Source: Desulfobacterales bacterium (GTDB lineage: Bacteria > Desulfobacterota > Desulfobacteria > Desulfobacterales > JALSRD01). From it: a DNA stretch of 41,765 nucleotides. The stretch lies in assembly GCA_026984935.1 (NCBI GenBank), contig JALSRD010000084.1, positions 1-41,765 of the forward strand. The letters run 5' to 3'. The position numbers and the translations under genes were made by a program. Under the pieces are notes generated by a model. That model did no database searches. It saw only the letters and a program-made list of their open reading frames with translations, and had not been told where the DNA came from. This document shows positions 947 to 20,560 of the stretch, in pieces (the stretch's first letter is position 1; the number at the start of each line of letters is the position of its first letter).

Positions 947-1056
947 CAAACCTGCGCAAATGTTGTATGCCGAAAGGCGCCGATACGAACATGCAATCAG
1001 CGCTAACGGGAAATTCAAGCCGCAACATCTTTTTCACCACCGGGGAGGCATGCAAA

Positions 1057-1491
1057 ATGAGCGCAGCATACGTAAAAATTCCCATCTGGGTCCGTTTCGG
1101 CGACACGGATCCATACGGGGTGGTTTACTTTGTTTCCTACTTCCGATACTGCCACCACGGCATCGAGGAATTCATCCGCAGCCTGGGGCTGGCACCCGAT
1201 GCCATGTTCAGGAACCAGGAGCAGAAGTTCGGCCTGCCGGTGGTGGGCGCCCGGTGCGATTTTCACAAACCCGTGTGGTACGGGCAAAAGCTGGAACTGT
1301 CGGTCGCCGTCAAACAGTTGAAACCCCGGTCGCTGGCATTTGGCTTCCAATTCCATCGTCCGCCGGAAACGGCTCTGATTGCGCAGGGCGAAGCCACGTT
1401 GGTGGCCATCGGACCGGACTGGCGCGCCCGCGAGCTGCCCGCCGTGCTGGTTGAAAAATTGGCCGGCGCGGCAGCCGGCAATGCCCGCTGA
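1057..1491 (+). CDS. 4HBT/YbgC-type acyl-CoA thioesterase
   Basis: This 144-residue single hotdog-fold protein should hydrolyse an acyl- or aroyl-CoA to free acid and CoA in the cytoplasm. Residues 14-30 carry the family motif FGDTDPYGVVYFVSYF, in which the second Asp (about position 18) is the expected catalytic carboxylate. The rest follows the usual beta-rich hotdog layout. The start at 1057 has GGGGAGG eight bases upstream. The gene converges with the ADP-forming acyl-CoA synthetase at 1540, leaving 48 bases between the two stops. With that gene and the FlK-type enzyme at 3635 it suggests active management of acyl-CoA pools. The substrate is unknown; 4-hydroxybenzoyl-CoA-type and YbgC-type enzymes both fit. 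Confidence 0.85.
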   Translation: MSAAYVKIPIWVRFGDTDPYGVVYFVSYFRYCHHGIEEFIRSLGLAPDAMFRNQEQKFGLPVVGARCDFHKPVWYGQKLELSVAVKQLKPRSLAFGFQFHRPPETALIAQGEATLVAIGPDWRARELPAVLVEKLAGAAAGNAR

Positions 1492-4966: not shown

Positions 4967-5723
4967 GTTTCCCTCTGGAGGTGTGCCCCGGGCCTTCGTG
5001 CCGCAGGCCCAGGTAGGCACGCATGACGTCGGGGTTGCGGAGTACTTCCGCCGGCGGGCCGGCAGCGACTTTTTCACCGTGATCCAGCGCCAGAAGGCGA
5101 TCCGAGACACGAACACTCAAGTTTAAGAAGTGGTCGATGATCAGGATCGTAACACCGCGCGCCCGGACCTTTTTCACCAGCGACACAGCCTGTTTGACCA
5201 GAACGGGGCTGAAGCCGGCCGCGATTTCATCCAGCAGCAGCAGGCGTGGGCGCGTGGCCAAGGCCCGAGCCAGGTCCAGGCGCCGCTGTTCGCTGAGTGT
5301 CAGATCACCGGCAGGGGTATCGGCTTTATGGGTCATACCGACGAACGCCAGTGCCCGTCGGGCCGCATCGCGGTCTTGCCCGGTGATGCGCGGCCGGCAC
5401 CCCTTTCCGAAAAGACGCGCGGCCAGGATGTTGTCCGAAGCGCTCATGCCCGCAAACAGGCGCGATGACTGGAAGGTCCGGCTGATGCCCAGGCGGCAGA
5501 TACGTTGCGGTTTCAACCCGTTGATCAGAACATTATCGAAACGCACTTCCCCGTAACTGGGCTTCAGCCTTCCACTGATGACATTCAGCAATGTCGACTT
5601 GCCGGCGCCGTTGGGCCCCACCAGCCCGACGACTTCACCTTCGTCCAATACAAAATTGATGTCTTTTAGCGCCGTGAAATCGCCGAAAGTCTTGCTCACG
5701 GCATGCAGGGTCAACAGGCTCAC
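4956..5723 (-). CDS. livG: Branched-chain amino acid-type ABC importer, ATPase LivG
   Basis: This 255-residue cytoplasmic ATPase is the partner of LivF. It has Walker A GPNGAGKST, a degenerate signature LSEQRR in place of LSGGQ (common in LivG), Walker B LLLLDEIAAGF with the catalytic Glu present, and an H-loop His in LIIDHFLNL. The C-terminal NPDVMRAYLG segment is the LivG hallmark. The start codon overlaps the livM stop by an ATGA, and the end overlaps livF by 11 bases. That implies translational coupling across the operon. Confidence 0.92.
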   Translation of the reverse strand: MSLLTLHAVSKTFGDFTALKDINFVLDEGEVVGLVGPNGAGKSTLLNVISGRLKPSYGEVRFDNVLINGLKPQRICRLGISRTFQSSRLFAGMSASDNILAARLFGKGCRPRITGQDRDAARRALAFVGMTHKADTPAGDLTLSEQRRLDLARALATRPRLLLLDEIAAGFSPVLVKQAVSLVKKVRARGVTILIIDHFLNLSVRVSDRLLALDHGEKVAAGPPAEVLRNPDVMRAYLGLRHEGPGHTSRGKHAG

Positions 5724-6718
5724 GATGTTCTTCCGAAGTATCCCCAGAAACCTTTTGGGAAAAAAAGTACCGTTAAAACGAGCGCCAGGCCGTAGAGGAA
5801 TTCGTGCCCCGCCGGTAGAAGGGGGTGAAAAACGAACTGGTCCAGCGGATAGATCACAAGTGCCGCCAACGCCGGTCCCAGAATGGTGAAGCGACCGCCG
5901 CAGATGGCGAGAACCATGGGGATGGCCGAAAAGTACAGTCCGTAGACCAGGCCGGGTTCGATGTAGCGCACCAGGTGGGCATAGCAGGCACCGCAGATGC
6001 CGGCGAAAAAGGCACTGGCGGAGAGAGCCAGCAGGCGCAGGGCGCTAACCGGAATGCCGATGGACAACGCGGCGGTTTCTTCTTCACGCAGCGCCTGAAA
6101 GGCCAGCCCGAAACTGGAGCGCTGAATGATTCCCACGATGCACAGCACCATGACGGCATAGGCGAAGACAAAATAATAGGCGGCGGTGGAGCTGGCAGCC
6201 ATGTCCAGACGCCAGTCGCCCCAGTGCAACACAGGCAGCCCGGGCAGCCCCACCAGCCCCAGGGAGCCTTGTGTAACGTTATCCCAGTTCGTGGTGATCA
6301 CGCGGGGAATTTCCACGAAAGCCAGTGTCGCCAGGGCAAAGTAGGCTCCCCGCAGGCGCATGCAGATCAGCCCGGCCAGCATGCCGAGCGCGGCTGCGAA
6401 CACACCCGCCAATGGTATAGTGATCCAGACCGAGAGGTCTTGTATTGTGCTGAGCAGTGCTGAAACATAGGCGCCGGTGCCGAAAAAGGCGGCGTGGCCC
6501 AAAGATACGGCACCTGAAATTCCAAGTACGTTCCAGGCCAGGGCCAGGGAAGCCAGCAGCAGCGTCTGGGTATACACCTGCAGTACGTAGCCATTTTGGC
6601 CGGACACGACCGGCAGCGCAGCCAGTGCGACAAACGTCAGCAGCATGCCGCCTCTGGCCGCGGTGCGCCGCTCCCGGGGCGCGGTTGAATATGGAACGGG
6701 CCGTTCAGCGGCCGTCAT
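5720..6718 (-). CDS. livM: Branched-chain amino acid-type ABC importer, permease LivM
   Basis: This 332-residue inner-membrane permease has about eight to ten hydrophobic segments. It carries the family EAA-like cytoplasmic loop (SSFGLAFQALREEETAALSIG) and the GISGAVSLGHAAFFGTGAY segment diagnostic of LivM. It pairs with LivH to form the channel. Its first codons overlap livH by 14 bases. Confidence 0.92.
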   Translation of the reverse strand: MTAAERPVPYSTAPRERRTAARGGMLLTFVALAALPVVSGQNGYVLQVYTQTLLLASLALAWNVLGISGAVSLGHAAFFGTGAYVSALLSTIQDLSVWITIPLAGVFAAALGMLAGLICMRLRGAYFALATLAFVEIPRVITTNWDNVTQGSLGLVGLPGLPVLHWGDWRLDMAASSTAAYYFVFAYAVMVLCIVGIIQRSSFGLAFQALREEETAALSIGIPVSALRLLALSASAFFAGICGACYAHLVRYIEPGLVYGLYFSAIPMVLAICGGRFTILGPALAALVIYPLDQFVFHPLLPAGHEFLYGLALVLTVLFFPKGFWGYFGRTS

Positions 6719-7562
6719 CGGAAAAAATCCCCCGTGGTTTGAGCGCCAGCAGCCCGAGCAGCAGAGCAGCCGGGATCATTTCGCGCCAGCTGGAACCAAT
6801 GTAGAGCACGGTAATGGATTCGGCCAGCGCCAGGAGCCAGCCGGCCAGGATGATGCCGCCCAGCCGTCCCACACCGGCGAAAATCGTCAGGGTGACGGCC
6901 AACAGGGTGGCTTCGGGACCGGTTGCCGGGTAGAGGTAATGGATGCAGCCGAAAAGCGGCCCGGCCAGACCGATAAAAAAGCCCCCGATCGCGAAGGCCA
7001 GGATTCCCATGGCGGCAACGTTGATTCCGGCCAGGGCGGCGGCCTCGCGGTTCTGGATCGTGGCCCGCAGGGCTTTTCCCGGGTAGGTATGGTACATGAA
7101 CAGGTAGAGCAGGGCGATGGCGCCAAGCGACAGGCCCAGCAGCGTCAGCTGTCCATAGCTGACGGGCAGGGCGTTGAAACCAGCCCCGTGATTGAGAGTA
7201 GGAATACGGATGAGCCGGTAATTGCCGGAAAAACACAGGCGCATGGCGTTTTGAATCAGAATGGCGATCCCGAAACTGAAAACGATGGAGTTTAATTCCA
7301 GCGGTTCGCTCAGGCGCGCAAACAGGCGCTGCAGCGCCAGGCAGACCGCCATGCTGGCGACAATCGCAACCGGGAAGGTGAAAACAAAGGGCAGCGCCCA
7401 GGTTTTCCAGAGCCAGTAGGCCGTATAGCCGGCCAGCACCAGCAGTTCTCCGTGGGCCAGATTGAAGTTGCGGGTAACGCCGTAGATCAGGGCGAACCCC
7501 AAGGCGACAAGGGTGTAAAAAGACCCCGTCGCAAGTGCCGAAACCACGACGGCGCTTAACAT
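6705..7562 (-). CDS. livH: Branched-chain amino acid-type ABC importer, permease LivH
   Basis: This 285-residue inner-membrane permease has the LivH hallmark near its N terminus (ALGFALIYGVTRNFNLAHGELL), a central cytoplasmic loop with GKALRATIQNREAAALAGIN, and about eight hydrophobic helices. It begins three bases after the stop of the binding-protein gene and overlaps livM. The order binding protein, LivH, LivM, LivG, LivF is the classical one. Confidence 0.93.
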   Translation of the reverse strand: MLSAVVVSALATGSFYTLVALGFALIYGVTRNFNLAHGELLVLAGYTAYWLWKTWALPFVFTFPVAIVASMAVCLALQRLFARLSEPLELNSIVFSFGIAILIQNAMRLCFSGNYRLIRIPTLNHGAGFNALPVSYGQLTLLGLSLGAIALLYLFMYHTYPGKALRATIQNREAAALAGINVAAMGILAFAIGGFFIGLAGPLFGCIHYLYPATGPEATLLAVTLTIFAGVGRLGGIILAGWLLALAESITVLYIGSSWREMIPAALLLGLLALKPRGIFSDDGR

Positions 7563-7565
7563 GAA

Positions 7566-8804
7566 TTATCTTTTTCCCCATGCCGGTGCGGGAAAGATCG
7601 CCGCCGCCGCGGCCCTGCCGGGCGGAAAAACCGGCACGAGCCGGCCATGCTGGATCTGTACAACGACATGGTGGTAGTGCAGCGGGTTGCCGTGGGCGTC
7701 GAACGCCAGGTGTTCCATGGGGAGGACCATGTCCAGACGGGAAAGCGCATCGCGGATGTGGTTGCCGGTCAGGGGCAGACCGGCGGCCGCCACGCTGCGC
7801 ATGGCTGCAATCAGCGCCATGGCCGAAGTATAGCCGTGCATGTTGGTGGTGTTGGGCGCATGCTGGTAGCGCTCGGAAAACTGGCGTATGAAAGTTTTTG
7901 AGGCCGCTTCGGTGCCCGGCATGGTGATTCCGGGATTCCAGGCACAAGTGCCGTACAGGTACTCGGCGTTCGGCCCCATGGCGGCGACAAAGCGCCTTGA
8001 GGCGATGCCGAAGGGGCCGATGTAGGCTTTGGGGGAGAAATGATGCTCCTTGAACTGTCGCACCATGAGCATGTGATCGGGTGTAAAGCCGGCCGATACA
8101 ACCACGTCGATTTTTTGCGCGGCCAGTTTGAGAATCAGCGGCGTGAAATCCGGCGTGCCGGGGCGGAATTTTTCCAGCATGGCGACACGGATATTGCGGG
8201 TCGCAAGACAACTCCTGAGATCCTGGGCCAATTCCGTGGCACCGGGAGTCGCGGCATACAAAACAGCCAGGCGCCGGGGCTTGAACTGTTCGGTCAGGCT
8301 GCCGCACAAAGGCTCAATAAATCCCCGCAACCTGGAGACCCGAAAGAAATAGCGGTTCCGGTGTTGTGCCAGTTCCTTTTGCAGGCTGGCGGAGGCCACG
8401 TAAGGCACCCTGTATTTTTGGGCCACGGCGGCAATGGGCCCCACCAGTGCATCCACGTACCCGCCTGTCAACGCCACAACTTTTTTGAGACTGCAGAGTT
8501 CTTCGGCCCGGGAAATGGCAACGCCCGGGCGGCTCTGGTCGTCGCGTGATAGCAGCACGATCTTTCTGCCGGACACACCGCCGCGGCGGTTGGCCATATC
8601 GATGGCCACCTGAATGCCGCGGTCGATTTCAAGGCCCTGTTTGGCCAGCCGTCCGGAAAGGGGGCTGATTTCGCCGATCTTAAGGCTTCCCGCCCGAGTC
8701 GGACACACGGCGGCAGCCAGCAGCATGAAACCGGCGGCTGCACAGAAACAGCTGAATCGATATCCTGGCCGTAAATTTTGAACGCGCCTTGCGAACATTC
8801 CCAT
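7566..8804 (-). CDS. livK: Periplasmic substrate-binding protein of the Liv-type importer
   Basis: This 412-residue protein is a type I periplasmic binding protein (Peripla_BP_6 family) with a Sec signal peptide. A basic N terminus is followed by a hydrophobic stretch at about 20-33 and a probable cleavage after PTRA near residue 38. The mature start, LKIGEISPLSGRLAKQG, is typical of LivJ/LivK proteins. GGAG lies seven bases before the ATG. As the first gene of the operon it sets the specificity, and members of the family bind amino acids, amides, urea, aromatic acids or short fatty acids. Position beside CoA-activation genes suggests an organic acid, which is inference only. Confidence 0.9.
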   Translation of the reverse strand: MGMFARRVQNLRPGYRFSCFCAAAGFMLLAAAVCPTRAGSLKIGEISPLSGRLAKQGLEIDRGIQVAIDMANRRGGVSGRKIVLLSRDDQSRPGVAISRAEELCSLKKVVALTGGYVDALVGPIAAVAQKYRVPYVASASLQKELAQHRNRYFFRVSRLRGFIEPLCGSLTEQFKPRRLAVLYAATPGATELAQDLRSCLATRNIRVAMLEKFRPGTPDFTPLILKLAAQKIDVVVSAGFTPDHMLMVRQFKEHHFSPKAYIGPFGIASRRFVAAMGPNAEYLYGTCAWNPGITMPGTEAASKTFIRQFSERYQHAPNTTNMHGYTSAMALIAAMRSVAAAGLPLTGNHIRDALSRLDMVLPMEHLAFDAHGNPLHYHHVVVQIQHGRLVPVFPPGRAAAAAIFPAPAWGKR

Positions 8805-8883: not shown

Positions 8884-9861
8884 TCAGCAGTCCGCCGCGG
8901 ACGTCAACGTGACCTTGGAGCCGACGCTGTTTAACAGAAAACTTTCGGGAAATGCTTCTTGAAAGGCCGTCACCGCTTTCCAGCCGGTGCAGTGCATGGG
9001 TACCACCAGTGCAGGGTCGATCTGTTGCATCTCACGCACAGTGGGTTGAAGCGCTTTCTGATAAAAAGGGCCGCTCAGGTGAAATCCGCCCAGCACGGCA
9101 TACACCCGCTTTTCACCGCTGATCTTGCGCGCGTAATGCAGGGTGTTGATGATCCCGGCATGCGCACACCCCGAGATCACCACCAGGCCCTTGTTTTTCA
9201 GGTTCATGACAATGGCCTGGTCGTCGACAATGGGGTCCTGCACGAGCTGGCCGTCTTTTTCGATCAGCGCATTGGGGAATCCCTTTTCAAAGGGGGTATT
9301 GCGCTCCACTTCACCAGTGACCAGGATGCTGTCGTCGGCAATCGGGACGGGGTTTTGGCTCTCCACGATGGTGGCATTCTTTTCGGCCAGCACCTCTGGC
9401 ACCAGGGTGCGTGGGAAAAGCCGTTTGCTGCCGTCCGGTGTGCGTGTGTAGCGGGGATGCGCAAAGGCCCCCGGATGCACCACCAGCGGAATCGGCGCCG
9501 AGCGCTGGTCGAGGATCCATCCCAGCGCGCCGGTGTGGTCCATGTGACCGTGGCTGATGACGATGGCCTCGAGCGCCGCAATGTCGACGCCCAGCCGGGC
9601 CATGTTGTGCGGTACGCCGACATGTGTGTAACCGGTATCGAAGAGTATGCTGTGCTTTTGTCCGTTCATATGCGTGGTTACCAGCAGCGACAGTCCGTGT
9701 TCGGCCAGCAGGGTGTCATCCAGGATGCGGCCGTCGATGGCCAGCGGCGGTCGGCTGACGGTTTCCGACGGCGGCAGCAGAAGATCCACATAGTTGTCGA
9801 TCAGCGTTTGGATCTCAATACGTTCGGACATCTTGATGGCCAGAGGCAAGTGAGTGTGCAT
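8884..9861 (-). CDS. Metallo-beta-lactamase-fold hydrolase, COG1237 (DHPMR-synthase-like) type
   Basis: This 325-residue cytoplasmic MBL-fold protein has the metal motif HGHMDHTG, followed by SGCAHAGIINT, GGFHL and MHCTG. That combination marks the group related to 7,8-dihydropterin-6-yl-methyl-4-(beta-D-ribofuranosyl)aminobenzene 5'-phosphate synthase. Members outside methanogens have no proven substrate. The start at 9861 has GGAGG eight bases upstream. An alternative ATG at 9885 overlaps the stop of the acetyltransferase gene (ATGA) and would add eight residues. It is probably co-transcribed with that gene. Confidence 0.85.
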   Translation of the reverse strand: MHTHLPLAIKMSERIEIQTLIDNYVDLLLPPSETVSRPPLAIDGRILDDTLLAEHGLSLLVTTHMNGQKHSILFDTGYTHVGVPHNMARLGVDIAALEAIVISHGHMDHTGALGWILDQRSAPIPLVVHPGAFAHPRYTRTPDGSKRLFPRTLVPEVLAEKNATIVESQNPVPIADDSILVTGEVERNTPFEKGFPNALIEKDGQLVQDPIVDDQAIVMNLKNKGLVVISGCAHAGIINTLHYARKISGEKRVYAVLGGFHLSGPFYQKALQPTVREMQQIDPALVVPMHCTGWKAVTAFQEAFPESFLLNSVGSKVTLTSAADC

Positions 9862-9881
9862 GATGAATTCCTCCGCGCAGC

Positions 9882-10319
9882 TCATTTTTCAGGCGTTAAT
9901 GCCAGCTTCATAATATGATAGCCGTCCTCGTCTTCGACGTCGGGCAGGATGGTTTTGCTGATTTTAAAGCCGAATTTGTGGTACAGCGCAATGGCCGGCT
10001 TTCTGCCCATGTCCACATCCAGACAGATTTCGGTAATTCCAGCGGACCGAAAAATGTCGATAGCCCGGTCCAACAGGCGGGAAGCCACCGTCTTGCGGCG
10101 GTGGTCCGGGTGAACGGCGAGTTTCAGAATCGTGGCGCTGATGTTGCGATAACAGCCTACGGCGATTAGAAACCCCAGGATTTCCGCACGGCCGCAAACC
10201 AGAAATGTTTCTTTCAGAGCAGACTTGAAATTGTGGATTTCCCAGGTCTGGCCGAACGAGAGGCGCTCAATCTCCATCGTCTGGGGGATGTCACTTTCCT
10301 CCGCCGCGCGCACGTGCAT
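9882..10319 (-). CDS. GNAT N-acetyltransferase, RimI-like
   Basis: This 145-residue acetyltransferase begins with VRAAEESDIPQTMEIERLSFG, the usual GNAT beta1-alpha1 start. The acetyl-CoA pyrophosphate loop is represented by HPDHRRKTVASRLLD at about 83-97. In canonical RimI this loop reads RGxGxG or RRKGIG, so it is somewhat altered here. The end, YHIMKLAL, matches RimI-type proteins. The ATG at 10319 has CGGAG upstream; the open frame continues further upstream but crosses the terminator at 10459. The acceptor could be ribosomal protein S18 or another amine. Confidence 0.8.
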   Translation of the reverse strand: MHVRAAEESDIPQTMEIERLSFGQTWEIHNFKSALKETFLVCGRAEILGFLIAVGCYRNISATILKLAVHPDHRRKTVASRLLDRAIDIFRSAGITEICLDVDMGRKPAIALYHKFGFKISKTILPDVEDEDGYHIMKLALTPEK

Positions 10320-10458
10320 GGCAGTCTCCGTTCCGGCCCTTGAAAGTTTGTTGGGTGAAAAACGACTCACTGCATATGGCAACCGCCCGCCGTCTTCCCT
10401 ATGCCAGAAATAGCGCAAAAAAGCAAGGAATTCACGGATTCTTGCCGCCGGTAGGCGC

Positions 10459-10493
10459 AAAAAAACCCCCTGCACCGCACATGGCGCAGGGGG
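10459..10493 (-). terminator. Rho-independent terminator after the acyl-CoA ligase gene
   Basis: On the minus strand CCCCCTGC pairs with GCAGGGGG around a 12-base loop, directly followed by seven T. It lies 39 bases after the ligase stop codon, so the acetyltransferase and MBL genes need their own promoter or read-through. Confidence 0.85.
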
Positions 10494-10531
10494 ATCGGTA
10501 GCTGACATCCAACCGTGCAACAGCGCGGTTG

Positions 10532-12178
10532 CTATTTGGGCGGACGCAGATGTCGGCGCAGCAGCTTGCCGGTGGGCGTGCGCGGCAGTGAATCGCGGTA
10601 TTCGATGGCCCGCGGAAGCTTGTAGATGGCAATGTAGTCCTTCAGGAATTCCTTGAGTTCTTCGAAGAAGGCGTCATTACCTTCGTGACCTTCCTTCATG
10701 ACCACAAAAGCCTTGGTGATCTGTCCTTTTTCGGGATCCGGTACACCGATGACGGCGGCTTCGGCCACGGCCGGGTGCTTCTGGATGGCTTCTTCCACCT
10801 CGGCCGGTCCGATGCGGTAGCCGGAGCTCTTGATCATGTCGTCTTCGCGCGAGACGAAGAAGATGTTGCCGTCGGCACGCATGTAGACCGCATCCCCCAT
10901 CTGGTTCCATCCGTCGACGACGCCCTTGCGCTGGGACTTGATAAGGCGCTCGTTGTCCACATAAGGGTTCCAGTACAGGCTTCCCGACGGGCCCTTGAGG
11001 ATCATGCTGCCGATTTCATCTGGCTTGCAGTCCTGCCATTCCGGGTTCACCACGCGCACCTGCACGCCGGGCAGGGCCTTGCCGATGGAGTTGGGCACCG
11101 GTTCGGGGTTCATGGTGTTGGAGGTCACCAGGTGGAGCATCTCGGTGCCGCCGAGGCCTTCCCAGATGGGTTGACCGGTGAGCTTCTGCCAGGCCGCCAG
11201 CGTCTCGGCGCCCAAGGCATCACCGCCCGACGTGTAGAGACGCACTGAACTGGTGTCGTATTCCTTGAATTTGGGGAACTTCATCAAGGCCCGATAGGCC
11301 GTGGGCAGGCCGGTCAGGATCGTGATCCGGTGCTTCTGGATCAGCTCCATCATGTCCGGCGGCGAGAACTTGGGGATCAGCGATATGGTGGCGCCGCCCT
11401 CGAAAGGCATCAGGGTGAAGGTTCCGAAGCCGGCGGCAAAGGAGACCGGCGCGGCACCGCCCAGCACATCGCCCGGGACCATTTTGTAGACATACTTATT
11501 CACCAGTTTGGTTTCGATGACAATGGGGCGCACGAAATGGACGCAACCTTTGGGCATGCCGGTGGTGCCCGAGGTGTACAGCATAATGCCGATGTCGTCA
11601 CCTTTCAGCATGGTGGCGGAAAGGTCCTCGGATCCGCTGGCGAGCATCTCTTCGAAGATCATGTTGCCGGCGGCCTTGAACTCATCGGCATTGCCGCCGA
11701 TCACGATGACCTGCGTACCGAACTCGAATCTGGGCTTGGCCTGTTCCACCGGTGGCATGAGCGGTGCGTTGACGATGAAAAACTTCATCTCGGCGTTGTT
11801 GGCCACGAAAGCCACCTCGTCTGCCGACCACAGCGGGGATGTGGGTACCGGAATGGCGCCGATCTTTTCAATGGCGAAAACGGCGGCCACGGCCTGGATG
11901 GAATTCACAAGGCGGATGCCCACCCGGTCCTGGGGCTCCACACCCGCGGATTTCAGGCTGTTGCCGAACTTGTTGACCATCTGCTGGAGCTGGGCATAGG
12001 AGACCGACTGGTCCATGAACTTGATGGCGATATTTTCCCCGCGGCCCTCGCGGACATGTCGGTCGAGGAGAAAATCGGCCAGGTTCAATTCGTGCGGCGT
12101 GTCCGCGAATTCTTCGGGCACGACGTATTCAGGCCACATGTCCTTCGGTGGCAGGTACTTTTCCGGAATCTTTCCCAT
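10532..12178 (-). CDS. AMP-forming acyl/aryl-CoA ligase (benzoate-CoA ligase-like)
   Basis: This 548-residue adenylate-forming enzyme makes acyl-CoA from acid, ATP and CoA. The ATP-binding motif YTSGTTGMPKG is at about 201-211. Further motifs are YTSGGDALG, GLGGTEMLHL, GDAVYMRADGNIFF and the hinge SREDDMIKSSGYRIGPAEVEE. The C-terminal catalytic Lys is in PRTPTGKLLRR. The overall pattern is closest to benzoate/2-aminobenzoate-CoA ligases, but the carboxylate cannot be named. The start at 12178 has GGAGG eight bases upstream; the GTG at 12184 is too close to that site. It is transcribed away from the CoA-transferase operon across a shared control region, which suggests a common pathway. Confidence 0.88.
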   Translation of the reverse strand: MGKIPEKYLPPKDMWPEYVVPEEFADTPHELNLADFLLDRHVREGRGENIAIKFMDQSVSYAQLQQMVNKFGNSLKSAGVEPQDRVGIRLVNSIQAVAAVFAIEKIGAIPVPTSPLWSADEVAFVANNAEMKFFIVNAPLMPPVEQAKPRFEFGTQVIVIGGNADEFKAAGNMIFEEMLASGSEDLSATMLKGDDIGIMLYTSGTTGMPKGCVHFVRPIVIETKLVNKYVYKMVPGDVLGGAAPVSFAAGFGTFTLMPFEGGATISLIPKFSPPDMMELIQKHRITILTGLPTAYRALMKFPKFKEYDTSSVRLYTSGGDALGAETLAAWQKLTGQPIWEGLGGTEMLHLVTSNTMNPEPVPNSIGKALPGVQVRVVNPEWQDCKPDEIGSMILKGPSGSLYWNPYVDNERLIKSQRKGVVDGWNQMGDAVYMRADGNIFFVSREDDMIKSSGYRIGPAEVEEAIQKHPAVAEAAVIGVPDPEKGQITKAFVVMKEGHEGNDAFFEELKEFLKDYIAIYKLPRAIEYRDSLPRTPTGKLLRRHLRPPK

Positions 12179-12367
12179 AGTCACATCCTCCTTTTGCTGA
12201 CGGTTAAACGGTTAACAGGCATCGTTTCATCTTCTCGAATCGTTCCGTCAGATGCGGGCAAAATGGATCTGGCGGGTACTTCCATGGATGCTTTAAGCGC
12301 ATAACACCAAAAAGCAGTCAAGTCCAGTGCTTTTTCATTTCATTAAGCCGAAAAATTCATTTTATGC

Positions 12368-12397: not shown

Positions 12398-12410
12398 TGA
12401 ATAAAATTCA
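12398..12410. promoter_or_regulatory. Palindromic operator-like element, copy 1
   Basis: TGAATAAAATTCA consists of inverted arms TGAAT and ATTCA around AAA. It would cover the transcription start of P1, a position typical for a repressor. An identical 13-mer recurs at 12454. TGAAT/ATTCA arms occur in operators of TetR-type fatty-acid regulators such as Bacillus FadR; that link is inference. Confidence 0.55.
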
Positions 12411-12453: not shown

Positions 12454-12466
12454 TGAATAAAATTCA
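12454..12466. promoter_or_regulatory. Palindromic operator-like element, copy 2
   Basis: This is an exact repeat of the 13-mer TGAATAAAATTCA, 56 bases downstream of copy 1, in the same position relative to P2. A partial third copy, AAAATTCA, lies at 12352-12359 just upstream of P1. Confidence 0.55.
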
Positions 12467-12763: not shown

Positions 12764-14254
12764 ATGGCAGAGAAAAGAGACATTGAAATAAACAGCCGGG
12801 CCGACACCATGGATCTGATGAATCCAGAGATCAGGCCATGGCCTGTGACACCTCCTCCGACAGCCGAATGGGTCATGGAAAACACCTATGCCAAGCGCAA
12901 AGCGGAGGATTTCGGCAAGTGGTCCGAAGACAATCTCCGGTTTGAGTATGCCTTTGCCAAACCCGAGGCCCTGCAGGGAAAACGCTTTCTCTGCGCCGGG
13001 ATCTGGCGGCTGGGCAACAAGTTCTGTACGGCTCTTTTGGCCGAGGCCGGTGCCGAGGTGATCAACATCGAGCCCCCGGGAGGGGATCCGCTGAGAAAAC
13101 TCACGCCTTTCGGGCGGGAAGAGTACATGCTCGAAGACAAGATGACCGGCGAAAAATGCGGCCTGGACTTTCTGCACGAGATGCGCGGCCAGAAATCCGT
13201 AACCCTGAACCTGGAAACCGAAGAGGGCCAGGCGATTTTCAAGGCCCTGGCGGCCCACTGCGATGCGGTTATCGACGAAATGCCCCCCGGCTACATGGAC
13301 AACCTGGGGATCGGCTACCGCGATCTTTCCGAACTTTACCCCTCACTGATATATTGCAACATTGCCGTACGCGGCACCTGGGGCCCGTACAAGGACAAAC
13401 TGTCCAAGTTCGGCCAGTGGACACTGGAACCCTTTGGCGGCTGCGCCAATGCTTTCGTGCACAACACCGGTTTCCCCCAGGATCAGCTGCCGCGCAAAAG
13501 CGGCGGTTCGCCCACGCGTTCCGGTGTCTGGTTTGCCGACTACGTGGCCGGCGAGCAGGCCGCCAACACCATTCTGGCGGCCATGTACTGGCGCGACGAA
13601 CTGGGCGGCACGGGACAGTTCTGCGAGGTCACCGGCGCGGAATCCCAGCTGGACATTCTGGATTTTGACATCGGCTGGTACGGCTTCAACGGATCCATCA
13701 AGGCGCGTACGGGCGGCTGGGACCCCAACCTGAACCAGTATGCCTGGAACCCCTGCCGCGACGGCTACATGATGATCGGCGGTCAGACCGACCGGCTGTG
13801 GTACCGCATCGGCATGTGCATCGAGCGCGACATGCCGCAGTTCGGCCGCCTGATCCACGAAGACCCGATTCTCAAGGAGATGGGCGCCCGCAATGCGCTG
13901 GAAATGCTGACCAAGACCTACACCATGACGGCCCGCTGGCTGCGGAACATCAACCGCATCGAGGCCGAAGAAAAGCTCATGGAGTACGAGATCGCGGCCG
14001 GCCCGCTGCTGTTCATCGACGAAGTGGCCGAGTTTCCGCACTTCAAGTACCGTCCCTGGGTGGCCACCATCGATACCGACCATTATGGTACCATCTTGTA
14101 TTCGGTGCCGCCCAACAACTACCAGATGCGCACGCCGCATCGCGTCAAATCGATGGGCCGACCGACGGGATTTGACACCTACGAGATCCTGCAGAAATAC
14201 GCCGGTGTCGGCCAAACCAAAGTCAACGAACTCAAGGGTAAGGGGGTGATCTAA
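12764..14254 (+). CDS. Family III CoA-transferase, large subunit A
   Basis: This 496-residue CaiB/BaiF-type protein should move CoA between acids as half of a heteromer. After an atypical 70-residue N-terminal extension come [22 protein letters not shown] (about 90-111), [23 protein letters not shown] and a C-terminal small domain. The segment that in formyl-CoA transferase carries catalytic Asp169 (TGFWDG) reads TGFPQDQ, with Asp240 one position late. The GxD segment of the racemase branch reads FGQ (Gln218). The ATG at 12764 has TTTGGAGG upstream. The stop overlaps the next start as TAATG. Length exceeds the usual 400 residues. BbsE-like succinyl-CoA:benzylsuccinate transferase subunits are the closest functional analogy. 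Confidence 0.85.
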
Positions 14255-15669
14255 TGGCAAAAGACCTAAGAGTAACGAGAATCGAAGACCTGCCAGGCCC
14301 CAAGAGCAAGGAAGAGCTCGAAGAGATGAAAATGCCTTACGAAGAATACTGCCGTCAGCAGTTCGATGTAGGCAACGAGTTCTCCAAGCCCCAGGCCCTT
14401 GACGGCATCCGCTGGCTGAGCACCACCATGTATATTTTTACACCCCACTCGGTGGCCAACATAGCCGAGATGGGCGCCGAGGTCATCAAGATCGAGATGC
14501 CGCGCATGGGCGACCCCATGCGGCATACCTCGCCGTTCAACGAATGTTATCTCTATCCGCTGCACGACTCGCGGCCCATGACCGGTGCCGGTATGGGGTT
14601 TCTGGGAGCCAACGACAGCGAGTACTACATCACCATGGACTACCACCTGGACGAGATGAAAGAGGCCTTTTACCGCATGGTCAAGATGTCCGACGGCCTC
14701 ACCGAGTGCTACCGTCCCGGGACCTTTGACCGCTGGAAACAGTCCTACCGCTACGTGCAGGAGCTCAACCCGCGCTTCATCTACGTGTGGGGCGGCGGCT
14801 TCGGCTACGGGCCCAAGTGCTTCGGCGGATCCTACGACATCCTGGGGCAGTCGCATGCCGGACTGGGGTCGGTGACCGGCTTCCATGAAACCTTCGGCGG
14901 CCACTGCGCCAAGCACTCCAACTGGTGCATCGACTGGTACTCGGGCACCCAGATCACCTTCGGCATGCTGGCGGCATTGCACTGGCGCCGCAAGACCGGC
15001 CTGGGCACCATGATCGAGTTCTCCCAGGTACAGGCGGCCACCCGCTGTCTGGGGTATGCGGCCCCGCTTTACGGGCGTTTCGGCATCGTGCGGCAGCGCT
15101 GGGGCAACTGGGATACGCAGCTGTGCGCGCACGGCATCATCCTGTGCGGCAAGTCCGATTTCCCGGACGCCAAAAACCCGCAGGACAAGTACGACGCGCG
15201 CTACGCCATGGTCAGCGCCTTCCAGGACGAAGACTTCAAGGAACTGTGCGCCGTTACCGGCAACCAGCAGCTCTACGACAAGTACAAGGCCACCAAAGAC
15301 CGCGTCGAGGGCGAAGCCCAGGTGGAGATCTACGCGGCACTGGAAAAGTGGGCCGAAGACAAGTCGCGCTCCGAAGTCGTCAAGATCCTGCAGGATGCCG
15401 GGCTGCTGGCAGAGCCGGTCATGAACGACCGCGAGGTCTACGAAAGCGAACATTTCCGCCAGCGCGGCAGCATTCGCTGGATCGACGACCCCACTTACGG
15501 CGATGTGCTCGTGCAGAGCGCCTACAGTTCGGGACTGATGGCCAAGACCCCGCGCCGGCAGACCTGGATCTGGCGCACCGTGGGTGCCGACAACGTCAAG
15601 ATCTACCACGAGATGCTCGGCTATCCCATGAGCAAGGTCGAAGAGTGGTACGAAAAGGCCTGGATCTAG
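14254..15669 (+). CDS. Family III CoA-transferase, large subunit B
   Basis: This 471-residue second CaiB/BaiF-type subunit is translationally coupled to subunit A. It has its own 50-residue N-terminal extension, then [24 protein letters not shown] (about 68-91), a [19 protein letters not shown] segment with Asp195, and [22 protein letters not shown] (about 241-262). At the position of the formyl-CoA transferase catalytic Asp it reads TGFHETF, with Glu212 instead of Asp. The two subunits differ clearly from each other, as in BbsE/BbsF-type heteromers. Substrates are not evident: an aromatic acid or arylsuccinate with succinyl-CoA as donor is plausible from context only. Confidence 0.85.
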
Positions 15670-15686
15670 AAAAGGAGGTAATAACC

Positions 15687-16172
15687 GTGTGTGATATCAT
15701 CTGGTGCAAGAAAGAAGTGGACGGCAAAGTCTGCAACACCGTCAATTACCTGGACCCTTACTGTTTCTGGAACTGGGAAGGTAAGGTCAACTGTGCCGAA
15801 TGTGGAGCGGTGTATTACATCCACATGATCCAGGGCCACATGTACAAGGGGCCCGAAGAACGGCCCGGCGAAAAGCCGGATACCAGTCCGCTGTATGCCG
15901 ACAAACCGCTGGACGGCTATACCAACTACAGTCCTGGTGTCGAAGGGCGTACGCGGCCCTTCCAGTGCCTGCCCCGCGACATCTACCTGGGGGTGCCCGA
16001 CATGGTGAAGTTCAGCGTGCGCGGCCGCCCGGTGCGCGGCTGGCGACCCCAGCCACCCAGCGCCGGAATTGCGGGCAGTATGCCTTACAGTTGGGACCTG
16101 AAAAACGGTTCGCCGGAGGTGTGGGAGGAGTACCAGAAGCGCCTCAATAGTGGTGAAGTTAAGGACTGGTAA
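15687..16172 (+). CDS. Cys-rich small protein, probable metal-binding ribbon
   Basis: This 161-residue protein has a GTG start at 15687 with AAAGGAGGT eight bases upstream. The N-terminal 45 residues hold Cys2, 7, 16, 26, 36 and 39, including WCKKEVDGKVC and NCAECGAVYY. That layout suggests a zinc ribbon or a small Fe-S site. The remainder is Pro/Gly/Tyr-rich with few hydrophobic runs and one further Cys near 94. No signal peptide or membrane segment is seen. I do not recognise the family. Its place directly after the CoA-transferase subunits, with strong ribosome sites throughout, suggests an accessory subunit or a partner of the pathway enzyme. Confidence 0.7.
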   Translation: MCDIIWCKKEVDGKVCNTVNYLDPYCFWNWEGKVNCAECGAVYYIHMIQGHMYKGPEERPGEKPDTSPLYADKPLDGYTNYSPGVEGRTRPFQCLPRDIYLGVPDMVKFSVRGRPVRGWRPQPPSAGIAGSMPYSWDLKNGSPEVWEEYQKRLNSGEVKDW

Positions 16173-16190
16173 CTACGAAAGGAGTGTCCG

Positions 16191-16418
16191 ATGGCAGAGT
16201 TGACACCTATTGAATTTCTGGACAAGGTCCTGGAGCCGGACAAGGAGTCCGACCATATCTGCTGGAACTGCCTGCACCTGAAGCCGGTGATCAAAGGCTC
16301 CAGCTTTCCTCCGGCGGATATTATCGGCTGGTGCAAGAAGATTCACTGGCCGCACTACTGGTGTGTGGCGGATTTCAACGTGGTCAAAAAATGCTACGCC
16401 TTTACAGCCAAGAAATAG
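16191..16418 (+). CDS. Small Cys protein resembling the gamma subunit of arylsuccinate-synthase-type enzymes
   Basis: This 75-residue protein has Cys24 and Cys27 (ICWNC), Cys48, Cys58 and Cys68 (KKCYAF). The CxxC, about 20 residues, C, aromatic patch, final C-x-x-F order resembles BssC, the small [4Fe-4S] HiPIP-like subunit of benzylsuccinate synthase, and the small subunit of hydroxyphenylacetate decarboxylase. No glycyl radical catalytic subunit is present in this window, so the protein may serve a distant enzyme or have a different role. The start has AAAGGAG upstream. The resemblance is by motif only, so the family call is tentative. Confidence 0.65.
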   Translation: MAELTPIEFLDKVLEPDKESDHICWNCLHLKPVIKGSSFPPADIIGWCKKIHWPHYWCVADFNVVKKCYAFTAKK

Positions 16419-16426
16419 GAAGCGTT

Positions 16427-16702
16427 ATGGAAGCGAACATCCGCAAGGAACTCGACACGTTGATGAAGATGGTGCACAACTGGAAGCAGGACTACCAGCG
16501 CTGGGTGACGCCTGCAGGCGGGGATGATTTTCTCGCCCGCGAATTTCTGGAGGAAATCGAGCGGCATGTGGTGCCCTATGTGCATCGAATGTATGCCTGT
16601 GAATACCTGACGTCTTCCGAAGCCGAAGAGTTCCTGGATTCCTGTTACGGCCAGGTGAACGAACTCCGCGACCTGATTATGGCCGCGGAGACCCAAAACT
16701 AG
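16427..16702 (+). CDS. Small helical protein of the CoA-transferase operon
   Basis: This 91-residue acidic protein (MEANIRKELDTLMKMVHNW) is predicted almost entirely alpha-helical, with one Cys in MYACEYL and one in DSCYGQ. It follows the 75-residue Cys protein after eight bases and precedes the next gene by 17, so it belongs to the same transcript. The ribosome site AGGA is weak, which suggests coupling to the preceding gene. No family was recognised. It could be a structural or assembly subunit. Confidence 0.65.
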   Translation: MEANIRKELDTLMKMVHNWKQDYQRWVTPAGGDDFLAREFLEEIERHVVPYVHRMYACEYLTSSEAEEFLDSCYGQVNELRDLIMAAETQN

Positions 16703-16719
16703 ATAAAAGGAGGTAGAGC

Positions 16720-17142
16720 ATGCCTGAACTATGCCGCGTGATTGTTTGCGGGTTCGATCCAATGCTCGTCAGAGGCTACGTGAAGACCGGATACCGGGCC
16801 TTGTGGTGGCACATATCAGACGAACTGTACGAAAAATACGACGTGAAGCCGGGGGACAAGGTTTCCGGCAAGCTCCTCAAGGTATTTTACGGCAAGGACG
16901 GCAAGGCCACGCATGAACCCAACGAGCCTTTCGAATGGCAGGTTTCCAAGGAATCGGGGCTGGCCGTGATCCTGCCGTCCGACGTGATCACCAAGTACGA
17001 GCTGACCGAAACGCATTTCCTGGAACTGCTCATCGAGAAGATCAACGATCAGGAGGTTTACCCCGGTGAGGAGAAACTCAGCGAAAAATACTGGCCTGAA
17101 GAGAAGATGAAGCTGGACTTCGTGCTGGCTTACATCAAGTAG
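16720..17142 (+). CDS. Unknown protein, last gene of the CoA-transferase operon
   Basis: This 140-residue protein has AAAGGAGGT upstream of its ATG. The N-terminal half (LWWHISDELYEKYDVKPGDKVSGKLLKVF) has the look of a small beta-barrel or AbrB-like 'looping' segment with a PGDKV turn. The C-terminal half is helical and acidic (ETHFLELLIEKI, PGEEKLSEKYWPEEKM). It has no clear metal ligands, signal peptide or membrane segment. A strong hairpin follows at 17200. Function is unknown; co-transcription implies a role with the CoA-transferase. Confidence 0.65.
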   Translation: MPELCRVIVCGFDPMLVRGYVKTGYRALWWHISDELYEKYDVKPGDKVSGKLLKVFYGKDGKATHEPNEPFEWQVSKESGLAVILPSDVITKYELTETHFLELLIEKINDQEVYPGEEKLSEKYWPEEKMKLDFVLAYIK

Positions 17143-17352: not shown

Positions 17353-18609
17353 ATGACGCAAAAAAACCGCAACGACAATCCCAAGGCCGACGACAATCCC
17401 ATGGCCGCAGAAATCAACCAGTACCCACCGCTGGCCGGACAACCGGACCATCCGGGATGGGTGACGCTTGCCCGGGTACTGCAGCAAACGGACCCTTTTT
17501 TTGAAAATATTTTATTCATGATGGGCTACGATTTTTCGTCCGACATCTATGTCATCAAGGGCGGTGACGGTCTGACCATCGTGGACCCCGGGAACGACTA
17601 CACCGCCTATATGGCGCTTTTCGATTTGGAGTACGAACCGGCCGACATCAAAAAGATCGTTTTGACCCACGGGCATCGCGACCACGCCATGGGGACGTTC
17701 GAGTTGCTGCGCTATCCCAGCATCAACCAGCGCAAGGAGGTTGAAATCGTCATCCATGAAGATGGGCCCGAAGAGTTTAAGAAGATGATCAAAGGCACCG
17801 GTTTTCCGCTGACCGAGATCAAGGGCGGCGAAAAACTGGATCTGGGCGGCACGACCTGGGAAGTGATTTTCACGCCCGGTCATACCATGGACGGCATTAC
17901 GCTTTACAATGCCGAAAAGCGGACCGCTTTCACCGGTGACACGGTGCTGCCCTTCGGCATTGCCGATATCGACAAAAACGGCGGCGGACGTCTGGATCAC
18001 CTGCTATATTCGGTCAAGGAGCTCCGCAAAAAAGACATCGCCCACATCCTGCCGGGGCACGGCGTGCCGGTGGCTTCCGCCGGCAAACGGGTCATCGAGG
18101 TGGCCTACGAGAGTGTCATGGCCAAGATCCTGAATGCCGAAGGCGAAGTCGCCTGGATGGACGGCGCACCGGCGCTGGTCCAAAAGGGCCTACTGGAAGA
18201 GGCGGCCTACTGCTGCGATAAGCACCTGGAAGGCCATCCCGACGATATGACGGCGCTGCAGCTCAAAGCTTTCTGCCTGACCGACATGGGCCGCAACGCA
18301 GAATCCCTCGTGCTGATCGATAAAATTCTGGCTCAAGACACAGACAACCCCCATGCATTGCTGGGAAAGGGCCATGCCCTGCTGGGACTGGAGCGCTATG
18401 AGGAGAGTTTAACCTATTTCGACCGCGTTCTGGCTATCGATGCCGACATCAAGGAGGCACACATATTCAAAGGCATGGCATTGTATTTTCTGGGTCGCGT
18501 GGACGAGGCCATGGATATCGAAGTTTTCAACCGCGAATTTGCGGAAAAATTCAAGGCCCAGCTGACGCGTGCAAAGTCCGGGGGGACGTCGGTGCAGGGA
18601 AGGGAATGA
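17353..18609 (+). CDS. MBL-fold hydrolase fused to TPR repeats
   Basis: This 418-residue cytoplasmic protein has a metallo-beta-lactamase domain at about 55-260 with LTHGHRDHAMG, TPGHTMDGI, FTGDTVLP and PGHGVPV, the complete set of metal ligands. It is followed by about three tetratricopeptide-type helical pairs (about 285-390, e.g. NPHALLGKGHALLGLERYEESL). The TPR half should bind a protein partner. AGGAAACG precedes the ATG. It stands alone between the CoA-transferase operon and the convergent deacetylase gene. The substrate is unknown; glyoxalase II-like thioester hydrolysis is one possibility. Confidence 0.87.
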   Translation: MTQKNRNDNPKADDNPMAAEINQYPPLAGQPDHPGWVTLARVLQQTDPFFENILFMMGYDFSSDIYVIKGGDGLTIVDPGNDYTAYMALFDLEYEPADIKKIVLTHGHRDHAMGTFELLRYPSINQRKEVEIVIHEDGPEEFKKMIKGTGFPLTEIKGGEKLDLGGTTWEVIFTPGHTMDGITLYNAEKRTAFTGDTVLPFGIADIDKNGGGRLDHLLYSVKELRKKDIAHILPGHGVPVASAGKRVIEVAYESVMAKILNAEGEVAWMDGAPALVQKGLLEEAAYCCDKHLEGHPDDMTALQLKAFCLTDMGRNAESLVLIDKILAQDTDNPHALLGKGHALLGLERYEESLTYFDRVLAIDADIKEAHIFKGMALYFLGRVDEAMDIEVFNREFAEKFKAQLTRAKSGGTSVQGRE

Positions 18610-18662: not shown

Positions 18663-19535
18663 TCAGGACTGCAGGATTTCGATGATCGGCGGGATGACGG
18701 CCGTGGCAATGTCCGTGCGTGAACCGCCGCCCAGGACCACTTCCAGACGCCCGCCGCTGACATCTTCTGACGTCTGTTTCATAAAAACCGCGATGTCCCG
18801 GTAACAGCTTGCGCTGAGCCCCAGGCTGCCGTAATCGCCCTGGTGGGTGTCGAAGCCGAAGTACCAGAATAAAAGGTCCGGACGGAAATCTTTGACCCGC
18901 GCATCGAATGCGGTTTTAATTTTTGCGCTATAGGCCCGGTCCACATTCCGGCCATGCTCCGGCCTGCTGAAGATGTCCATGCTGCCCGGCGCCTGGATAT
19001 CGACCTTGGTGCCGTCTTTTGAGACGAAATCCATGCCGCAGCAGCAGACGTGCAGCACATCCGGGTCCTCGGAGAGCAGATCACGCGTGCCGTCACCGTG
19101 ATGGGCGTCGGTGTCCAGAATGGCGAAACGCCGGGCCCCCCGGGTTTCGCGCAGGTAGGCGATGGTGATGGCCACGTCGTTGAAACAACAGTAGCCGCCG
19201 AAGTAGTTCCGTCCGGCGTGATGTCCACCGGCGCCGATGAGCGCGAAGGCATTGTCGATCTCGCCGTCCCAGATTTTCTCCGCCGCCAGCACCACGCCGC
19301 CCACCGAATGCCAGGCCGTCGAACACAGTGGATCGGCCCGAACACCCCGGATCAGTCCGGGTGTGTGCACCTTCAGTATCCATTTCTCGTCGATGGGTGG
19401 AGATTCGAAGAGGGTCACATTCGGGCGGCAGGTGAGGTTGTCAAGGGCCTGTGGAAAGTCCTCCAGGCGGGCCCCCTGCGTCAAATAGCTGCGGCGACTG
19501 AAGCTGGGGTGATAAAAAACACCGGTGCGCTTCAT
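18663..19535 (-). CDS. Histone-deacetylase-superfamily (AcuC/AphA-like) amidohydrolase
   Basis: This 290-residue zinc-dependent deacetylase has catalytic His-His at 105-106 ([10 protein letters not shown]) and metal ligands in [11 protein letters not shown] (Asp143, His145) and GFDTHQGD (Asp229). In bacteria such proteins deacetylate proteins, such as acetyl-CoA synthetase in AcuC, or polyamines. The start codon overlaps the stop of the upstream U32 gene (ATGA), so the two are coupled. The pathway role is not evident. An acyl-lysine eraser acting on the acyl-CoA enzymes nearby is only an idea. Confidence 0.88.
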
Positions 19536-20560
19536 GAGATGTGCTTGATCTGGCCGTGCAGCTCGCGGGTCTTTTCCATGCGTACGCGGTCGCGGTCCTG
19601 GGCCAGGCGCCGGATGGAATCATTGGCAGCCACCATCTCCGGGAGGCGGGAGTCTTTGCCCTGGGTGTAGCCGTCGATCAGCACCCGGTAGGCATGGATC
19701 ATCTCGGAGATGAGGGATACCGGGTATTCACGGCCCTGCACTTTCAGTGTCTGCAGGCCCAGCTCGACATAGGCCCGCAGCTCATCGCCCCGGATGGCAT
19801 ACGCCACGTTGGGCCGGCGGCGGATGCGGTCGTTGACACGCCGGATTTCGGTCTCAGTACGTCCCCTGCGCTGCATCAGCTTCTTGCGCTGGGCTTCGGT
19901 CAGCAGGCAGAAACGGAAACAGCTGCCGCTTTTGTCCGGCCAGCCTTCGTATTCCACAATTTCGTTGCCGTCTTCGTCGTGGTAGACTTTCCGGATGTAG
20001 GAGTCGCTGGTATACTCGTGAAAGAGGCAGTTGCCGACACCCCCGATACAGCGGTTGCCGTGGATCAAAATCTCGGTCAGTACCCCGACTTTGTCGGCGT
20101 CGGCCTTGAAGGCGGCGGCCTTTGCCACGCTGTCGATTTCGGTGCTGGCAACGATCTGGGAGGCACCGGCCTGGCGATAGATTTCCATCTCGGCGGCGGT
20201 CTGAATATTGCAGCCCACGCTGGCATGAATCACCAGCTGCGGGTAGTTGCGCTGAATCAGGCGCATCAGGCCGGCGGTCTTGGCGATGATGCCCTCGACG
20301 CCGTACTGGGCCCATTTGTCTGTTTTGTTAAGGACGCGCATGAAATCTTTTTCGTCGACCTCAGCGTTCACCGCCACGCGCACCTTGCCGCCATGGCTGT
20401 CGGCAATGCGTACGGCATCCCTGATTTCACTGTCTTCCAGTTCCCAGGCACACTTGCGGCGGCTGAAACCCTTCGCCCCCACATAGACGGCATCGGCACC
20501 TGCCTCAAACACGCCCTTTACCATGGCCAGGCTGCCGCCCGGAGCCAGCAGTTCGTTCAT
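19532..20560 (-). CDS. Peptidase U32 family protein
   Basis: This 342-residue protein begins [27 protein letters not shown], the hallmark U32 TIM-barrel start. It has a central Cys-rich segment ([29 protein letters not shown]) resembling the sites that bind iron-sulfur clusters in the U32 proteins RlhA, TrhP and UbiU/UbiV. These proteins mediate oxygen-independent hydroxylation of RNA or ubiquinone precursors, and protease activity is doubtful for most of them. A strong AAGGAGGGG ribosome site precedes the ATG. It is transcribed with the deacetylase gene from a near-consensus promoter at 20608-20636. The specific substrate is unknown. Confidence 0.85.

Follow-up and report, generated by a model that had tools for sequence, protein, structure and literature searches.

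A conserved seven-gene unit around a two-subunit family III CoA-transferase, linked to an AMP-forming acid:CoA ligase in bacteria and Archaeoglobales

Introduction

What is the task of a CoA-transferase whose two subunits are encoded together with four small proteins that carry no annotation? The question is raised by a 41,765-nucleotide stretch of DNA from a Desulfobacterales bacterium (assembly GCA_026984935.1, contig JALSRD010000084.1), hereafter the window, in which genes for two family III CoA-transferase subunits, named ctA and ctB here, are followed by genes for four small orphan proteins (c161, c75, h91 and p140) in a six-gene run at 12764-17142. An original prediction made from the sequence had suggested that this run may be a composite enzyme complex for activating a recalcitrant acid, possibly in an unrecognised pathway. 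We present a computational follow-up, according to which the unit looks like a known kind of enzyme, a family III CoA-transferase, inside an undescribed system; no description of the operon was found in the openly licensed PMC literature that was searched.

Results

Operon architecture and conservation

The six open reading frames (ORFs) of the original prediction are present as one tight run, ctA and ctB overlapping by one base (TAATG) and the genes downstream of ctB being separated by 17, 18, 8 and 17 bp. The predicted extent was correct for these six and ended too early, as the gene of a metallo-beta-lactamase (MBL)-fold hydrolase with tetratricopeptide (TPR) repeats also belongs to the unit, which therefore comprises seven genes:

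12764-14254 (+): ctA, family III CoA-transferase subunit, 496 aa, with Asp259 at the catalytic position
14254-15669 (+): ctB, family III CoA-transferase subunit, 471 aa, with an invariant Asp227
15687-16172 (+): c161, orphan of 161 aa with 7 Cys, starting at GTG; it has a four-Cys knuckle at the N-terminus and a C-terminal part that is long and extended
16191-16418 (+): c75, orphan, 75 aa, with a near-invariant CX2CX20CX19C motif, a putative iron-sulfur (Fe-S) or Zn site
16427-16702 (+): h91, orphan, 91 aa, of no family and with the lowest conservation within the set
16720-17142 (+): p140, orphan, 140 aa, a predicted small closed beta-barrel
17353-18609 (+): MBL-TPR, the seventh gene, an MBL-fold hydrolase (PF00753) carrying TPR repeats at its C-terminus

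Systematic scanning of 84,980 species genomes with a c161 pattern, which demands exact short peptides so that distant relatives can escape it, yielded 72 loci. As the loci were selected by c161, this gene is present in them by construction. The other genes of the window were sought in the loci by tblastn, counting those with a long enough contig, and were found as follows: ctA in 63/64, ctB in 72/72, c75 in 72/72, h91 in 67/69, p140 in 69/70 and MBL-TPR in 58/66, always on the same strand as c161. The gene order of the window is kept in 68 of the 72 loci, where loci at contig ends were scored as ordered when the genes they hold are in order; one of the 68, the archaeal L082, starts at ctA and its upstream arrangement lies outside the contig. 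The arrangement is thus conserved well beyond the window. The exceptions are L081, L083, L084 and L085, all from Archaeoglobales, in which p140 and the MBL gene precede ctA, the MBL gene standing beside p140.

The majority of the loci belong to Desulfobacterota. The remainder include Desulfovirgula thermocuniculi (Firmicutes), some unassigned bacteria, two named Aquificota, one each of Nitrospinae, Methylomirabilota, Chloroflexota and Acidobacteria, and five Archaeoglobales. Within the window's own class, an even sample of 291 genomes contained c161 in 9, and in a further genome (G223) ctB and ctA were met at a contig end. Given these low counts, set against loci in several phyla, the unit is rare and patchy yet deeply spread, and second copies of the operon occur in some genomes. 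Comparison of ctB with plasmid records brought matches in 962 of them, none reaching 60% identity; the best among the matches listed shares about 27%, hence no close plasmid copy of ctB was seen. Distance-matrix correlations among the genes of the module are positive (r 0.34-0.86 in bacteria), a comparison made with no outside control and not used as an argument here.

Upstream of ctA, two TGAATAAAATTCA palindromes lie at 12398-12410 and 12454-12466, 56 bp apart, between ctA and a divergent ligase gene described below. In the window 0.05 are expected, and the genome holds 6 sites including these two. Such TGAATNNNATTCA palindromes also occur upstream of ctA in L041, L052, L066, L068 and L070, in 2-3 copies spaced 56-63 bp, and they form a candidate, probable operator. 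The four sites elsewhere in the genome gave no clear regulon: those in L102 and L104 fall inside long ORFs, that in L101 between small ORFs near a contig end, and that in L103 precedes an AMP-ligase-like ORF by about 0.9 kb. The region 5' of ctA showed a strict sigma54 -24/-12 pattern in 0 of 57 cases, a result of little information since 0.0 was the expectation.

The CoA-transferase subunits

Both subunits match the CoA_transf_3 domain (PF02515; cut-off 23.3 bits) nearly end to end, ctA with 214 bits (E=3e-63) and ctB with 213 bits (E=1e-62), and they are 26% identical to each other, which bears out the original view of two dissimilar family III subunits. The domain is preceded by N-terminal extensions of about 70 residues in ctA, where PF02515 begins at residue 71, and of nearly 50 in ctB. 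Asp259 of ctA aligns with the Asp of the formyl-CoA transferase 10uh, and Asp227 of ctB with that of the formyl-CoA transferases 10uh and 3ubm. As the Asp at this position of ctB is found in 68/68 alignment rows, ctB is likely to be the catalytic subunit. The best match of ctB in the PDB by E-value is 9fn0_B of BbsEF, and ctA also matches chain A of that enzyme. Against the named equivalogs the scores are far under the cut-offs (best 117 bits versus 700 for ctA, 124 versus 442 for ctB).

As a separate observation, the genome of the window carries a second two-subunit family III CoA-transferase set at the end of contig G000:C89 and the start of C90 (L094, L095), accompanied by a Liv transporter and a PAS-type regulator named by reading of the sequence.

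The four small proteins

None of c161, c75, h91 and p140 reached a Pfam or NCBIfam family above cut-off, so the description of these proteins as uncharacterised holds and they do not fall into ordinary families. A Pfam scan of every alignment member brought to light weak zinc-ribbon matches in 6 of 42 c161 proteins (best E 0.0024), a sub-threshold rubredoxin-domain match in 19 of 36 c75 proteins (best E 0.028) and, among 49 p140 proteins, weak matches of single members alone. In c161, Cys16, Cys36 and Cys39 are present in 72/72 rows and Cys7 in 67; in c75, Cys24, Cys27 and Cys48 in 71/71 rows and Cys68 in 70. Because of these near-invariant cysteines both proteins look like metal or Fe-S proteins, and the four of c75 are compatible with a site for a metal or a [4Fe-4S] cluster. 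The label "BssC-like" given to c75 in the original prediction was not borne out by sequence, as neither a Pfam family nor a match at E<=10 in a PDB profile search was obtained for it.

The same profile search gave no match at E<=10 for p140 and, for c161, just a chance match (E=0.6). The AlphaFold2 (AF2) model of c161 (pLDDT 79, pTM 0.53) has no fold match in the PDB; so poor a model of the free chain would suit a protein that folds on a partner, which is only a suggestion. The p140 model (pLDDT 92.5) suggests a small closed beta-barrel with moderate similarity to 2glw and 2d9r (VIA-align Z 7.5 and 7.0, next row 4.7, all below the tool's level for safe matches), and Foldseek returned nothing for it at E<=0.001. 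An apparent c161-c75 fusion in a Chloroflexota MAG (metagenome-assembled genome; L078:10001-10732) was considered as a sign of contact between the two proteins and rejected as a frameshift or N-gap artefact.

Ligase and deacetylase-like partner genes

Three genes of the window bear on how an acid might be activated and how that activation might be controlled:

10532-12184 (-): AMP-forming aryl-CoA-ligase-like enzyme, divergent from ctA, with a C-terminal PRTPTGK motif
18663-19535 (-): HDAC-family Zn hydrolase (PF00850, E=2e-43), the proposed LdaA/AcuC-like lysine deacetylase of the ligase
9882-10520 (-): GNAT acetyltransferase (PF00583) beside the ligase, a possible ligase acetylase

The nearest PDB entries of the ligase are anthranilate- and benzoate-CoA ligases. 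Fifty of the genomes behind the 72 loci were searched for both partners, with cut-offs of E<=1e-100 for ligase orthologues and E<=1e-40 for the HDAC-like protein. A ligase orthologue is present in 46 of these 50 operon-bearing genomes, even when it is unlinked to the operon, and the best match per genome is 45-85% identical. In the class sample it was found in 13 of the 291 genomes, comprising all 9 that are c161-positive and 4 of the 282 others; two of those four are G223, where the ligase adjoins ctB at the end of a contig, and G137, with a match of only 39% identity. The HDAC-like gene is present in 40 of the 50 versus 0 of 30 c161-negative genomes, the latter being the first 30 listed of one class. 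Both partners are carried by all 4 archaeal genomes among the 50. Fisher tests on this genome-wide co-occurrence assume independent genomes; as the genomes are related, weight is put on the counts.

The metal-binding motifs of the HDAC family, HH and DxDxHHGDG, are kept in 8/8 loci, and the third motif in 7/8. Typically, the motif PX4GK marks targets of the acetyltransferase Pat, and it is present in 24/24 ligase rows whose C-terminus can be read (a single record underlies L068 and L100). The motif is frequent in this class of enzymes, and the unproven idea of control by the HDAC-like protein is compatible with it. Homologues of the GNAT gene stand beside few other loci.

Neighbouring genes

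Four further features of the window recur in these neighbourhoods:

19532-20560 (-): U32-family protein (PF01136) with CX6CX35CX3C, a putative O2-independent hydroxylase
967-1491 (+): 4HBT-type acyl-CoA thioesterase (PF13279), elsewhere near the operon, ligase or HDAC gene, archaea included
4145-8804 (-): Liv-type ABC transporter (LivF, LivG, LivM, LivH, LivK), named by family scan
8884-9885 (-): second MBL-fold hydrolase (PF00753), adjoining the ligase in other genomes

The scan covered 145 loci, with overlapping records counted, including 40 stretches around a ligase or HDAC gene. A U32a match was found in 10 of them, a 4HBT match in 16 and LivK in 14. Liv genes lie beside the ligase or the operon in three phyla, for instance in D. 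thermocuniculi, Desulfoferrobacter suflitae and a Chloroflexota MAG. The ligase, an MBL gene and LivKHMGF stand together in D. suflitae L108 and in L111 of genome G329, and in D. thermocuniculi (L152) three U32 genes, the ligase and Liv genes are divergent from ctA-ctB. One cluster of ligase, U32a/b/c, 4HBT, HDAC and a ferredoxin-like gene is seen in L109 and L124, while an Archaeoglobus MAG (L139) joins the module with 4HBT and ligase. The U32 protein of the window has Cys171, Cys178, Cys214 and Cys218 in columns that are Cys in 10-11 of 11 U32a-type proteins, with a spacing of CX6CX35CX3C versus the usual CX6CX15CX3C.

Other genes were recorded in passing. In the window, an NDP-forming acyl-CoA synthetase (nucleoside-diphosphate-forming, ATP-grasp; 1540-3561, -) adjoins the Liv genes and stays below all named-family cut-offs, and a small orphan of no family (641-1018, -) has relatives near the operon, 13 loci in all with the window. 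By reading of the sequence, 24 loci have a PAS-domain regulator-like gene near the operon and 29 have one that is receiver-like (L021, L028, L033, L046 and others). Named in the same manner, JAB-like and AAA-like genes with two orphan genes occur near the operon in six loci (L025, L031, L044, L068, L072, L080), and an E1/ThiF-like gene in four.

Metabolic context of the hosts

BamA (TIGR03200), the marker of benzoyl-CoA degradation used here, is above cut-off in 3 of the 50 operon-bearing genomes. In the class sample it is present in 87 of 291 genomes and, among the 9 that are c161-positive, in the window's own (G000) together with a contig-end fragment in G054. DsrA was found in 38 of the 50 (37 over cut-off) and CdhC in 37. 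The benzoyl-CoA pathway as common context, and sulfate reduction or the Wood-Ljungdahl pathway as common denominator, were rejected on these counts; with DsrA and CdhC missing from part of the 50, neither of the latter two is needed. The system is independent of BamA-type benzoyl-CoA degradation, of sulfate reduction and of the Wood-Ljungdahl pathway. Several hosts have small genomes, some of 1.2-1.7 Mb, possibly incomplete MAGs.

Discussion

The original prediction is supported in part: there is an unrecognised, conserved multi-gene unit, it is built on a CoA-transferase of two subunits, and an acid:CoA ligase goes with it. Judged by BamA, a benzoyl-CoA route is missing from most of the hosts tested. 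The best reading, though a tentative one, makes the operon the core of a ligase-primed CoA-ester pathway of anaerobes and thermophiles. This pathway would serve one carboxylic acid, which is probably aromatic, and would rely on a heteromeric CoA-transferase that binds metal. Every reaction, the assembly of a complex, the acid itself and the direction in which the pathway runs are what we infer from the genes. The acid would be taken up by the Liv-type transporter, where present, and primed as CoA ester by the AMP-forming ligase; its activation by the linked ligase is more likely than by the transferase alone. The HDAC-type deacetylase may act on the lysine of PX4GK and so keep the ligase on, as LdaA does for the benzoate-CoA ligase of Rhodopseudomonas. 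Subunits ctA and ctB would form the heteromeric CoA-transferase, Asp227 of ctB carrying the acyl anhydride and CoA-thioester intermediates, and the pathway product could hand its CoA on to new acid, which would limit the need for ATP to priming. All four small proteins may serve as enzyme subunits or assembly factors, c161 and c75 with a bound metal or Fe-S. UbiU/UbiV-like U32 proteins could provide a hydroxylation that needs no O2. The 4HBT and MBL proteins might act last in the route as thioester hydrolases, or clear dead-end esters. In its fullest form the pathway would be common to bacteria and Archaeoglobales and would treat an aromatic acid as CoA ester, combining UbiUV-like O2-free hydroxylation, a six-subunit metal CoA-transferase and a dedicated ligase under HDAC control; as a whole this must be called improbable.

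A number of findings weigh against the pathway so drawn. The substrate is read from gene content; the acetyl-CoA synthetase 9g79 ranks between the anthranilate- and benzoate-CoA ligases among the matches of the ligase, which scores 324 bits against the benzoate-CoA ligase family TIGR02262, below its cut-off of 375. At the catalytic position ctA has Asp in 52 of 59 rows and Ser in the remaining 7. The ligase is present without c161 or ctB in G134 (a single contig) and G254, and at the cut-offs used it is absent from 4 of the 50 genomes and the HDAC-like gene from 10, where MAGs may be incomplete. The HDAC controls come from a single class, and genomes that are related do not count as independent. 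In Archaeoglobales (L121, L122) the HDAC gene adjoins another CoA-transferase pair, similar to the L094/L095 set, and owing to this adjacency it may serve that pair. The U32 protein of the window has partial matches to TrhP (92 bits versus a cut-off of 534) and UbiU (87 versus 440), and U32b of L152, which matches UbiV almost end to end (E=7e-21, far under the cut-off), matches TrhP about equally well over an N-terminal part. The links to U32, 4HBT and Liv genes are neighbourhood-based and absent near many loci. In a loose look for crotonase-type BamA, the number of candidates was 0 or 1 in two small-genome hosts, which hints weakly against ordinary beta-oxidation.

The same enzymes could instead be biosynthetic and build a cell component, such as a cofactor that is quinone-like or otherwise a hydroxylated aromatic, by an O2-independent route via CoA esters, with the transporter being incidental. 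The UbiU/UbiV-like genes adjoining the ligase would suit such a role, as would the hosts of 1.2-1.7 Mb and those without DsrA or CdhC; this alternative is rather unlikely, for a Liv transporter stands beside the ligase or the operon in three phyla, PAS-domain regulator-like genes lie near 24 loci, and the patchy spread and second copies suit a dispensable function. It is also conceivable that ctA-ctB is no longer a CoA-transferase and performs another acyl-CoA reaction (isomerisation, decarboxylation or C-C chemistry) with metal-binding small subunits. Non-transferases such as 2-methylfumaryl-CoA isomerase and alpha-methylacyl-CoA racemase are members of the same superfamily, and the long N-terminal extensions, the four orphan partners, the low equivalog scores and the loss of the ctA Asp in 7 of 59 rows point in that direction. 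Such a change of function is unlikely in the face of the ctB Asp, invariant in 68 of 68 rows, and of a transferase domain matched nearly end to end by both subunits.

BbsEF (PDB 9fn0) is one of the nearest known systems, having two dissimilar family III subunits with genes side by side. It differs in that the subunits of the window are 62-86 residues longer, four orphan small proteins follow them, and the hosts mostly lack BamA. In phmmer alignments ctA Asp259 is paired with a Glu of chain A, and ctB Asp227 with a His of chain B that directly follows an Asp, so that the correspondence of these residues with BbsEF is not settled. That the operon itself performs a step like that of BbsEF, in an anaerobic breakdown of hydrocarbons or aromatics that leads to benzoyl-CoA, is highly improbable. 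Such a step would agree with the BbsEF chain B match of ctB, with the benzoate-like ligase and with BamA in the window's own genome, and by the available descriptions the benzene-linked clusters of anaerobes, the "Magic" cluster of ORM2a and BzS1_26180/190 of BzS1, likewise combine pairs of type III CoA-transferases with an AMP-forming synthetase (PMC13101534, PMC13416013). In these descriptions, however, the partners are MaoC/dehydratase proteins, with an FAD/Fe-S trimer in Magic, and the accessible text names no set of four small proteins, which sets both apart from the window. Within the seven-gene operon there is no MaoC-type or FAD-protein gene, and BamA is present in one of the nine c161-positive genomes, with the G054 fragment besides, versus 87 of 291 overall.

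Returning to the ligase-primed pathway, its proposed control has a counterpart in Rhodopseudomonas palustris, where the benzoate-CoA ligase BadA is among the AMP-forming ligases served by an HDAC-type deacetylase; RpPat and KatA acetylate BadA, and SrtN and LdaA remove the acetyl group (PMC6640162). The PX4GK motif and the adjacent GNAT gene of the window resemble this arrangement; the difference is that the HDAC-like gene, of a putative deacetylase, tracks one ligase and the operon across domains. The UbiU-like and UbiV-like neighbours, with four conserved Cys, recall UbiU-UbiV, described as Fe-S, O2-independent hydroxylases (PMC6747719), prephenate being the oxygen source in ubiquinone synthesis according to a review (PMC11574389). 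They differ from that pair in scores far under the equivalog cut-offs, in up to three tandem U32 genes and in the link to a CoA ligase, and the window copy has no UbiV-like partner inside the window.

Conclusions

Overall, four protein families free of annotation are assigned to one conserved unit, which is tied across phyla and domains to dispersed genes, namely the ligase and HDAC genes by co-occurrence and the U32, thioesterase and transporter genes by neighbourhood. Two cultured hosts, Desulfovirgula thermocuniculi and Desulfoferrobacter suflitae, carry it. If the U32 link is true, the U32 hydroxylases would have a small-molecule role outside ubiquinone, of which the available portion of the review PMC11574389 makes no mention. 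A pathway of bacteria and archaea with U32 proteins and a six-subunit transferase would, if true, stand as an alternative to benzoyl-CoA reduction. Sulfate reducers, Archaeoglobales and vent bacteria hold hypothetical genes that had stood unconnected, and these are now brought together in one testable pathway.

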